From Tistrella mobilis (GTDB lineage: Bacteria; Pseudomonadota; Alphaproteobacteria; Tistrellales; Tistrellaceae): a DNA stretch of 64,000 bases. Position 1 is the stretch's first letter; each line of letters begins with the position of its first letter. The notes under the pieces were generated by a model. That model saw only the letters and a list, made by a program, of their open reading frames with translations. It made no database searches and was not told the origin of the DNA. Of this stretch, positions 2,900-15,605 are shown one piece after another. The stretch is from positions 62,001-126,000 of the forward strand of contig NZ_JBBIAB010000001.1 of NCBI RefSeq assembly GCF_039634785.1, read 5' to 3'. A program made the position numbers and the translations under genes.

Positions 2900-2927
2900 T
2901 TGACAGCCCGGCGCATCGGTATACCAT
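2900..2927 (+). promoter_or_regulatory. Sigma-70-type promoter for the leader/ACT-gene transcript
   Basis: TTGACA at 2900-2905 and TACCAT at 2922-2927 with a 16-nt spacer. The predicted start point is around 2934-2935, directly on the ATG of the first small leader ORF, which would make that ORF leaderless. Confidence 0.6.
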
Positions 2928-2934
2928 CGCGGAC

Positions 2935-3000
2935 ATGAGCATGATCGGACATCGCCATACGCGCGGTTTTGCGCGAATTACGGGCCCGGCCCTCTTCTGA
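2935..3000 (+). CDS. Possible leader peptide A (21 residues)
   Basis: A 21-codon ORF from ATG 2935 (a second ATG is at 2941) to TGA 2998-3000. The C-terminus reads RITGPALF. The stop codon and the last codons lie inside the hairpin at 2985-3010, an arrangement typical of attenuation leaders. The promoter places the transcript start at or next to the ATG, so translation may be leaderless, as known for rhizobial trpL. The peptide shares a C-terminal pattern (R-I-x-G-P-x-L-x-stop) with leader B exactly 200 bp downstream. It does not contain an obvious run of one amino acid, so what it might sense is unknown. That it is translated is an inference. Confidence 0.4.
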   Translation: MSMIGHRHTRGFARITGPALF

Positions 3001-3016
3001 GGGGGCCGGGGGTTTT
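2985..3016 (+). terminator. Rho-independent terminator/attenuator at leader A
   Basis: CCCGGCC at 2985-2991 pairs with GGCCGGG at 3004-3010, extended inward by CTC/GAG. It is followed by GGTTTT at 3011-3016. The stop codon of leader A lies in the loop region. As an attenuator it would cut the transcript before the ACT-domain gene. Confidence 0.6.
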
Positions 3017-3089
3017 CCCGTCTTGCGATGAGGGTCGCTGCCGGCTTGCGGCGCCTGCGGCCCGCCACCAGATCGATGCGTTGGTCCCG

Positions 3090-3200
3090 ATGACCGTTTC
3101 TGTCTTCGTCTCCCCCCGCAGCTGCGTCTCTGTCCGACACCGCCGGCGTCACACTGCATGCTGGACCGGTCTTCGAATTATCGGCCCGGTTCTCCGCTGA
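3090..3200 (+). CDS. Possible leader peptide B (36 residues)
   Basis: An ORF from ATG 3090 to TGA 3198-3200. Its end reads WTGLRIIGPVLR, matching leader A in the pattern R-I-x-G-P-x-L-x-stop and in an upstream RHT. It contains several Val, Leu and Ile codons (five Val in the first 15 residues), which would fit control by branched-chain amino acids, but this is only suggestive. No good Shine-Dalgarno sequence precedes ATG 3090, so the true start could lie elsewhere. The last codons form the left arm of the hairpin at 3185-3208. Confidence 0.3.
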   Translation: MTVSVFVSPRSCVSVRHRRRHTACWTGLRIIGPVLR

Positions 3201-3208
3201 GGACCGGG
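3185..3208 (+). promoter_or_regulatory. Hairpin overlapping the end of leader B
   Basis: CCCGGTTCTC at 3185-3194 pairs with GAGGACCGGG at 3199-3208 (one G-T/U pair), with loop CGCT. There is no T tract after it, so it may act as a pause or antiterminator-type structure rather than a terminator. Confidence 0.45.
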
Positions 3209-3346
3209 AGACCAGATGACGGCATGCGATGTCCCCCTGCCCGCCCGTGACGGTTGCGGCAGGCGGATGTCGGGACAGAGACCGTGACCGGAAAACGGCC
3301 CCCGACAATGGCAGGGCCCCGGTTACCGACGACGAGGACCGCCCCC

Positions 3347-3667
3347 ATGTTGACCGCCACCCTCAGCACCACCACCGCCCATCTCGCCCCGGCCGCCGAA
3401 GCGGTAGCGCCTGCCACCGCCTGCTTCTTCGTGGTCGCCGCCGCCGAGGTCGGCACCATGTCGCGGGTGCTGGAAGTCTTCGCCCTGCGCAGCCTGCTGC
3501 CGTCGCGCTGGCACAGCCAGCGGGTCGGTGGCCGTGCGGACGAGGTTCATATCGACGTTCAGCTCGACGACGTTGCACCGGGCGAGGCCGAAAAGCTGGC
3601 GCGCAAGCTCCGCCAGCTGGTCGAGGTCCGCCAGGTGCTGATCACCTTCAAGGCGGTGGCCGACTAG
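3347..3667 (+). CDS. ACT-domain protein resembling the small regulatory subunit of acetolactate synthase
   Basis: A 106-residue protein with one ACT-like domain at about residues 25-104. It shows the beta-alpha-beta start CFFVVAAAEVGTMSRVLEVFALRSL, a second strand around EVHIDVQLDDV, and helix-strand ARKLRQLVEVRQVLITF. This is the IlvH/IlvM/IlvN pattern (Gly-x-hydrophobic-Arg-Val then a long helix), but no large subunit gene is adjacent. Its partner and ligand are unknown; branched-chain amino-acid sensing is an inference. ATG 3347 is chosen because GAGGA lies 8 nt before it. The 5' region from 2900 carries two attenuator-like units, so expression is probably controlled by premature termination. 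A terminator follows at 3809. Confidence 0.7.
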   Translation: MLTATLSTTTAHLAPAAEAVAPATACFFVVAAAEVGTMSRVLEVFALRSLLPSRWHSQRVGGRADEVHIDVQLDDVAPGEAEKLARKLRQLVEVRQVLITFKAVAD

Positions 3668-3867: not shown

Positions 3868-4800
3868 TCAATCGGCGGCAGCCAGCCCCAGCCGCCGGCG
3901 GATGTCGGCCGGCGTGACACCCGCCTCGCGCAGATCGGCAAGCCGCACGCCGGGCGTGCGCTTGGCCAGCCGTCGCCCCTGATCGTCGGTCAACAGGCGA
4001 TGATGCCGCCAGACCGGCACCGGCCAGCCCGTCAGCGCCTGAAGCAGACGGTGGAGATGGGTCGCCGCCTCCAGGTCGCGGCCGCGGATGATGTGGGTGA
4101 TGCCCTGCAATGCGTCGTCATGCGTGACCGCCAGGTGATAGCTGGCCGGCACGTCCTTGCGCGCCAGCACCACGTCGCCGTGAATGGCCGGCGTCGCCTT
4201 CACCGGCCCCGCATCCATATCGGTCCAGCTGAGGCCGGCGGCGTCGGTCCGGCTGAGGCTGGCGGCGCCTGGTCCCAGGGCGGCCAGCGCTGCCGCCATG
4301 TCCAGCCTGAGGGCGTGCGGGTGCCCCGCCGCCAGCCTGGTCGCACGCGCGGCAGGCGTCAGCCTGCGGCAGGTGCCGGGATAGAGCGGGCCATCGGGTC
4401 CCGCAGGCGGCGGGCCGTGGGGCGCCGAGGCACTGGCCGCAATCTCGGCCTCGATCTCCGACCGGGTGCAGAAGCAGGGATAGACCAGGTCCCGCGCCGT
4501 CAACGCGTCCAGCACGGTGCGATAGTCGTCGAAATGCTCCGATTGCCGGCGCACCTCGCCATCCCAGCTCACCCCCAGCCAGTCCAGGTCCCGGAAGATC
4601 GCCTCGACGAATTCAGGGCGGCATCGGGTGGTGTCGATATCTTCGATCCGCAGGATGAAACGTCCGCCATGCGCCCGGGCGTAATCGTGAGACAGGATCG
4701 CCGACAATGCGTGGCCCAGATGCAAGAGCCCCGTGGGGCTCGGCGCGAAGCGGGTGACCGGCATCACGGCCGGCGGCGCGGGATCGATGGTCTGGCTCAT
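3868..4800 (-). CDS. gluQ: Glutamyl-queuosine tRNA(Asp) synthetase
   Basis: A 310-residue truncated glutamyl-tRNA synthetase paralogue that charges glutamate onto the queuosine base at position 34 of tRNA-Asp. Visible signs are RFAPSPTGLLHLGHA near the N-terminus (HIGH-type motif), the IEDID motif, zinc-ligand cysteines in YPCFC and the later YPGTCR, and a C-terminal RLAKR replacing KMSKS. The length and the missing anticodon-binding domain separate it from GltX. It starts at ATG 4800. It converges with the ACT gene, and upstream of it lies the AT-rich region that also precedes the enzyme cluster on the other strand. Confidence 0.92.
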   Translation of the reverse strand: MSQTIDPAPPAVMPVTRFAPSPTGLLHLGHALSAILSHDYARAHGGRFILRIEDIDTTRCRPEFVEAIFRDLDWLGVSWDGEVRRQSEHFDDYRTVLDALTARDLVYPCFCTRSEIEAEIAASASAPHGPPPAGPDGPLYPGTCRRLTPAARATRLAAGHPHALRLDMAAALAALGPGAASLSRTDAAGLSWTDMDAGPVKATPAIHGDVVLARKDVPASYHLAVTHDDALQGITHIIRGRDLEAATHLHRLLQALTGWPVPVWRHHRLLTDDQGRRLAKRTPGVRLADLREAGVTPADIRRRLGLAAAD

Positions 4801-15344: not shown

Positions 15345-15463
15345 TCCGGTTCCTCCCTCTCGGGTCTTGATCGACCCGGCCCGGACCGGCAGAGAGGGAA
15401 GAGGTTCCGAAACGCCGTCTCCCCTGCACCGCATGGGTTGCAGGGGCCGGCCATCCGCACCAT
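15345..15463 (-). promoter_or_regulatory. Expression platform of the TPP riboswitch
   Basis: Between the aptamer and thiM a stem CCCCTGCA/TGCAGGGG (15421-15446) can form. In addition, CCCTCTC (complement of 15391-15400) can pair with GAGAGGGAGG (complement of 15352-15361), which includes the thiM Shine-Dalgarno. This suggests control of translation initiation rather than termination. Confidence 0.5.
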
Positions 15464-15557
15464 CCCTCCGCCAGTATGAACTGGATCAGGTTCTTCGGGT
15501 CCCTGCGCTGCCTTGCGGCCCGGCAGAATCTCAGCCCCTTGTCGGGACACCCCTGGT
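15464..15557 (-). ncRNA. TPP riboswitch (THI element)
   Basis: On the minus strand the conserved parts are in order: GGGGTGTC near 15549-15556, GGGGCTGAGA at 15529-15538, ACCCGAAGAACCTGATCCAG at 15481-15500 and the closing GGCGGAGGGATGG at about 15464-15472. This is the classic THI box that binds thiamine pyrophosphate and shuts off thiamine genes. A TTGACA (complement of 15591-15596) with a poor -10 region places a transcript start near 15560. Confidence 0.93.
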
Positions 15558-15605
15558 GAGGTCTTCAGACTGCGCGCCGCCCGGGCGCGGTGTCAACAGT
15601 GCCGA

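Follow-up and report, generated by a model that had tools for sequence, protein, structure and literature searches.

The gene for a small ACT-domain protein in Tistrella mobilis is very probably controlled by two ribosome-mediated attenuators in tandem, which would respond to the supply of charged isoleucyl-tRNA, and the element from which both are built apparently represents an undescribed family of RNA switches found across Alphaproteobacteria. The case comes from comparative sequence analysis of a 64,000-nucleotide stretch of DNA, called here the window, and of related genomes. It is carried by the parts of the element and their conservation, the match between one sensor codon and the gene behind it, the leaderless reading frame, and the accumulation of rare cognate codons; from these we infer stalling of the leader ribosome, masking of the hairpin, and the direction of the response. 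Two tandem leader-peptide attenuators before the ACT gene had been proposed in an earlier reading of the window alone (the sequence-only reading), and the comparison supports them.

The tandem units and the ACT gene of Tistrella

A sigma-70-type promoter, TTGACA-16-TACCAT, lies on the plus strand at positions 2900 to 2927 of the window, with its -35 box at 2900-2905 and its -10 box at 2922-2927, where shuffles of the region predict 0.1 such promoters. Seven nucleotides past the -10 box, the ATG at 2935 opens leader ORF 1 (2935-3000, plus strand), which encodes the 21-codon peptide MSMIGHRHTRGFARITGPALF followed by a stop codon, closes with R-I-T-G-P-A-L-F-stop, and has the same frame in the three Tistrella genomes compared. 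The TTGACA promoter and the 21-codon ORF at the predicted transcript start had been named in the sequence-only reading, and both hold, here and in the frame test on relatives described below. Over the end of this ORF lies the first copy of the element, CGA-ATT-A-NNNN-CCCGG...CCGGG (2974-3010, plus strand; model match with an E value of 2.5e-6), whose hairpin at 2985-3010 spans the stop codon, has a stability z of -2.4 against shuffles, and is followed by TTTT at 3013-3016.

Leader ORF 2 (3090-3200, plus strand) ends in GLRIIGPVLR-stop and has its sole in-frame ATG at 3090. The second copy of the element, of the same form, occupies 3174-3208 on the plus strand (E value of 2.8e-10), and its hairpin at 3185-3208 also spans the stop codon, without a U-tract. 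Its CGA at 3174 lies exactly 200 nt 3' of that of element 1, which together with the stop at 3198-3200 and the separate hairpin confirms the earlier description of this unit. No good promoter of its own was recognized for unit 2 (window 3090-3200), and this unit is therefore not taken to be leaderless; the proposal of leaderless attenuators holds for unit 1 and not for unit 2. Both units are retained in all three Tistrella genomes, the spacing in one of them (G001) being 182 nt through an in-frame 18-nt deletion within ORF 2.

The target gene (3347-3667, plus strand) encodes a 106-residue ACT-domain protein of the acetolactate-synthase small-subunit type. In its AlphaFold model (pLDDT of 89), the beta-alpha-beta-beta-alpha-beta order of the fold is predicted, and the top PDB match of the model is E. 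coli IlvN with bound valine (5ypp), so that the target gene fits an ACT fold nearest to IlvN/IlvH. The nearest sequence profiles are likewise those of small subunits of acetohydroxyacid synthase (AHAS), with weak matches below the curated cut-offs, and membership in the IlvN/IlvH type therefore rests on the predicted fold together with these profile matches. A 99% identical ACT protein is found in T. mobilis (L019), and homologues elsewhere likewise have a CGA-ATT element 5' of their genes. Because the operons behind the element join the ACT gene to ileS (three genomes), ilvA (one genome), or cimA (two genomes), we infer that the ACT protein is an isoleucine-responsive regulatory subunit. A Nudix-like gene (MSYLxHIRxCNxxDLxxFRP...) often follows the ACT gene, at seven loci noted individually and at others. 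Convergent to the ACT gene in the window (3871-4800, minus strand) is a glutamyl-tRNA-synthetase-like gene without the anticodon-binding part (gluQ type); a gene of this type also occurs near the ACT pair in another genome (G150), and the neighborhood is possibly conserved. Farther along the window, a TPP riboswitch is present at 15445-15564 on the minus strand (Rfam RF00059, 64 bits).

Distribution and conservation of the element

The sequence-only reading had called for a search of alphaproteobacterial genomes for the peptide motif with an overlapping hairpin. When 387 such genomes were searched with the amino-acid pattern R-I-x-G-P-[VA]-L-x-stop, leaving the codons free, element-like matches were obtained from about 10 further families, all of them with CGA-ATT and GGC/GGG-CCG and all with a hairpin around the stop codon. 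A 40-nt covariance model (R1), run on the same 387 genomes without gene information, gave matches in 142 genomes at E<=1. Sorted by downstream gene, the best 90 R1 matches comprised 50 before ileS, one of which precedes ribF-ileS, 36 before an ACT homologue, one before leuA, and one 5' of a Tistrella operon encoding a kinase and an aminoglycoside nucleotidyltransferase; the other two scored low and look like chance hairpins. A codon-agnostic model (R2), run on 79 genomes, added two ilvA loci, more ACT loci, an ileS locus, and a leuA locus, with no further amino-acid gene class behind the element in these genomes; 13 other R2 matches look like chance hairpins. The motif with its hairpin was thus found as proposed, mostly before ileS as well as ACT, and, as both the peptide frame and the hairpin are conserved in relatives, the reading was not refuted on that count.

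Of the 387 genomes sampled, at least 86, from roughly 45 families, carry verified elements; these counts depend on models that grew out of the copies found first and are biased toward CGAATTA, with the codon-free search as a check. In one genus, 55 of 61 genomes have the element, and 11 of 12 loci among those listed there are ileS leaders that keep codons and frame. In a wider phylum sample of 299 genomes, whose non-alphaproteobacterial share is not shown, all 23 genomes with matches are alphaproteobacterial. Tistrella itself carries a third CGA-ATT element (L108, G000:C38:11123-11162, minus strand, with L210 and L211), kept in all three genomes; its leader encodes MWMMCGTRRISCPA before the stop codon, and the next genes are a small kinase-like gene and a gene of the ANT(9)-type aminoglycoside nucleotidyltransferases.

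A promoter of a kind comparable to that of Tistrella unit 1 scored 5' of all 105 related elements. With the best promoter for each element picked regardless of start codons, an ATG fell 3 to 12 nt past the -10 box in 93 of the 105, compared with about 10% in control windows, and this leaderless ATG was in frame with the CGA in 92 of the 93. About 11 to 12 codons precede the CGA, and whole leaders have median lengths of 21 codons (ileS class), 18 to 19 codons (leuA class), and 41 codons (ACT class). On the conservation of frame, and with ribosome profiling in Caulobacter (PMC4117421), the leaders are probably translated.

Their codon use follows the downstream gene. In leuA leaders, Leu makes up 25% of the codons before the CGA and occupies position -1 in 16 of 18, and in ACT-class leaders Ile peaks at positions -2 and -3. 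Of the 42 Ile codons in ileS leaders, 22 are the rare ATA, whose share in coding sequence is 3.4%; leuA leaders likewise use the rare CTA (2% in coding sequence) for 16 of their 47 Leu codons. A leader ORF with cognate codons adjoining a hairpin, one mark of a ribosome-mediated attenuator, is found here.

Sensor codon, hairpin, and read-out

The genes downstream belong to the amino acid of the codon after CGA. Where this codon is ATT, the targets are ileS, ilvA, cimA, and the ACT gene; the first CTT case was a low-scoring CGA-CTT match 5' of leuA. When the core was searched for with A barred from the first position of this codon, 25 matches were obtained, and CGA-CTT with a proper hairpin was found at some 17 to 18 distinct loci, all before leuA except for tandem Leu/Val copies before ACT. 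In these tandem copies, present in two genomes (G030 and G148), CTT and GTT elements share one leader ORF, CGA-CTT coming before CGA-GTT and the two lying 48 nt apart in G148, and they would act as a Leu sensor and a Val sensor in series. Between classes the core varies at the very base that decides which amino acid is encoded, and this base goes with the target gene. Most likely, then, the codon after CGA names the amino acid, and the specificity can be swapped among Ile, Leu, and Val by a single base. The earlier suggestion of a branched-chain amino acid signal is borne out and narrowed for Tistrella to isoleucine, from the conserved ATT and from the ileS, ilvA, cimA, and ACT genes behind the element.

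The same comparison bears on whether the peptide itself could be the signal, by a SecM- or TnaC-like arrest in which R-I-x-G-P-x-L, triggered by a ligand or by force, stalls the ribosome from within the exit tunnel. Positions 1 and 5 hardly ever depart from R and P, and V or A is common at position 6 and L at position 7, which speaks for arrest; however, R and P translate invariant nucleotides (CGA and CCG) that also build the element, and the residues upstream show no conservation between families. Both Tistrella ends do read R-I-x-G-P-x-L, as the sequence-only reading stated, but the conserved entity is the nucleotide motif CGAATTA-NNNN-CCCGG...CCGGG, and only 50 of 105 relatives have the G of G-P. 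Moreover, the second residue becomes Leu before leuA and Val in the tandem copy, which a fixed motif does not predict. With the peptide conserved only where the nucleotides force it, and with this key residue changing before leuA, the SecM-like stall that had been offered as an alternative signal is abandoned as highly improbable.

It is only slightly easier to credit an operator bound at the hairpin by a repressor, such as the ACT protein or IleS, with the small ORF incidental or secondary. The invariance of CGA-N-TTA and CCCGG/CCGGG is greater than a codon sensor needs, and the element adjoins the gene of a putative binder, an arrangement that has its precedent in E. coli thrS, where a protein operator lies before the binder's own gene. 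An operator nevertheless does not account for a class-variable core base that amounts to one changing amino acid and follows the target gene, for a frame and leaderless start retained in 92 of 93, or for rare cognate codons gathered just 5' of the sensor, and leuA is implausible as a target of IleS; we regard it as very improbable. Attenuation by tRNA charging is preferred over both the arrest peptide and the protein operator chiefly because the sensor codon and the rare cognate codons match the gene.

Covariation speaks for the hairpin, with 17 double-changed cells compared to 4.0 in shuffles, although its base, CCCGG/CCGGG, hardly varies and so adds little on this point. In the copies read, the C of CGA precedes the start of this hairpin base by 11 nt. 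A ribosome footprint reaches about 15 nt beyond the start of the P site. When CGA occupies the P site and the sensor codon the A site, the footprint of a stalled ribosome would overlap the base of the hairpin, which supports masking without proving it.

In a classical trp-type attenuator the hairpin would be an intrinsic terminator, and in its favor the hairpin lies over the stop codon, as in trpL, with TTTT following in Tistrella unit 1. Yet terminator-like sites at +20 to +220 were found in 0 of 52 ileS copies, 2 of 35 ACT copies, and 3 of 18 leuA copies, and U-tracts are rare among relatives, unit 1 being an exception. The earlier call of a terminator over the stop of ORF 1 thus holds for the hairpin and four U of that unit and fails for unit 2 and nearly all relatives. 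For want of an intrinsic terminator with a U-tract, the element is kept apart from the classical trp-type attenuators, and we judge that reading improbable. No antiterminator was recognized by eye or in single-sequence folds. The stretch 3' of the hairpin is pyrimidine-rich, with a C/G ratio of 1.3 to 1.4 and 25 to 28% T, compared to 0.9 to 1.05 and 18% T upstream, a composition weakly compatible with Rho.

Alternatively, the same sensor could be read out in translation, the leader ribosome coupling to or interfering with initiation of the next gene, especially ACT. In about half of the 35 ACT copies, the leader ORF passes the hairpin without a stop and crosses the ACT start, whose median position is +79; in these long forms (e.g., L068, L083, L087, and L100) the stop codon falls 10 to 30 nt inside the ACT gene, at +90 to +111. 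An outer stem, CGAAU:AUUCG, is exact in 19 of 35 ACT copies, compared to 10% expected, and tight spacing is likewise confined to the ACT class. Against this read-out, ileS and leuA lie anywhere between 77 and about 350 nt away, mostly 200 to 350 nt for leuA, and the Tistrella ACT start is about 150 nt away. In folding predictions, masking the first 16 nt left the accessibility of the target start unchanged, which argues against a simple translational switch. Overall, a translational read-out is unlikely, although the overrunning ORFs and the outer stem would suit translational coupling for ACT.

Three simpler accounts of these features were rejected. Simple sequestration of the ribosome-binding site does not fit, since the predicted accessibility is the same on masking the 5' arm. 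Pairing of CGAAU with AUUCG as the cause of CGAAU conservation holds for the ACT class only, the stem being exact in 9 of 52 ileS copies (7% expected) and 1 of 18 leuA copies. Programmed frameshifting, suggested by the stem 5 nt past the sensor codon, does not fit the ACT starts, since these fall in each of the three frames when counted from the leader, so that no fusion product is implied.

The attenuator that we favor would operate as follows. Transcription would start on the leader ATG or right beside it, and a ribosome would read about 12 codons up to the sensor CGA-AUU. With ample Ile-tRNA, it would enter the hairpin, reach the stop codon, and leave; CCCGG...CCGGG would then form, and downstream expression would be low. 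With scarce Ile-tRNA, it would halt with AUU in the A site, and the hairpin would be blocked because its base, 11 nt past the start of CGA, falls within the footprint, so that expression would rise. The codon after CGA would set the specificity, AUU for ileS, ilvA, and ACT, CUU for leuA, and GUU in the tandem copy. As a guess, the off state might be reached by factor-dependent (Rho) termination for ileS and leuA and possibly by translational coupling for ACT.

Some features count against this scheme, namely that the invariant CGA, the A after the sensor codon, and the CCCGG/CCGGG base exceed what attenuation needs, that no terminator-like site was found in the ileS class, that no antiterminator was identified, that about half of the ACT leaders overrun the hairpin, and that Tistrella ileS has no element upstream. 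CGA is read by a tRNA with inosine-34 through a weak I:A pair, and slow decoding by this wobble may, as a conjecture, underlie its invariance. In a bolder reading, less likely than not, the element would be a class-wide modular ruler, in which CGA in the P site sensitizes the ribosome to the next codon, the hairpin stands at a fixed 11 nt, and the read-out is terminator-less and factor-dependent; ileS, ilvA, cimA/ACT, leuA, and the aminoglycoside nucleotidyltransferase operon of Tistrella would have acquired it as a module passed from one to another.

If the proposal is true, Alphaproteobacteria would have a tRNA-charging switch for the essential gene ileS, for leuA and ilvA, and for a small ACT regulator. 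The one-base swap among Ile, Leu, and Val codons would be a natural experiment by which the mechanism is directly testable, the missing U-tract poses the problem of how an entire bacterial class carries out attenuation, and the element could be annotated in many genomes at once.

Comparison with known systems

Leader-peptide attenuation is classical. In Alphaproteobacteria, leaderless leaders are known from rhizobial trpL (PMC10117765) and ilvBN/ilvIH attenuators from Caulobacter (PMC4117421), and an ilvB leader peptide is attributed to Vitreschak et al. 2004 (FEMS Lett.) as cited by PMC1273637. Within the literature covered, which left older attenuator catalogues in subscription journals outside its scope, the one published trace of the ileS element was the Caulobacter crescentus "ileS leader CDS" CCNA_03934, translated according to ribosome profiling and used as a negative control (PMC4117421). 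It resembles the leaders described here in being a small, translated alphaproteobacterial CDS 5' of ileS, and it is very likely a member of the family, likened by description rather than by sequence; motif, hairpin, regulation, and family are absent from that account. In Methylorubrum, a start mapped 150 nt before ileS and 7 nt past TAGAAG (PMC9320726) fits a leaderless leader.

The T-boxes of ileS in Firmicutes and Actinobacteria likewise sense the charging of tRNA-Ile in cis at the ileS leader, but T-box RNAs bind the tRNA directly, without translation, whereas in our proposal the leader is translated. No family in Rfam 15, T-box included, matches the elements at the loci tested. The LEU element of actinobacterial leuA (PMC1262725) shares a leader peptide with Leu codons, a conserved RNA structure, and no obvious terminator. 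It is, however, a pseudoknot in which Leu codons pair with the leuA Shine-Dalgarno sequence; here a single hairpin lies mostly 200 to 350 nt before leuA, a distance that makes a pseudoknot of that type unlikely. The closest likeness is to the trp-type leaders, including rhizobial trpL and Caulobacter ilvBN/ilvIH, which also have a leaderless short ORF, cognate codons by a hairpin overlapping the stop codon, and amino-acid genes 3'. In contrast to these, the present element replaces the codon run by a single conserved sensor codon that follows an invariant CGA; the base of its hairpin is likewise invariant and stands at a fixed distance of 11 nt, with no U-tract or recognized antiterminator, and its core is reused for Ile, Leu, and Val by the change of one base.
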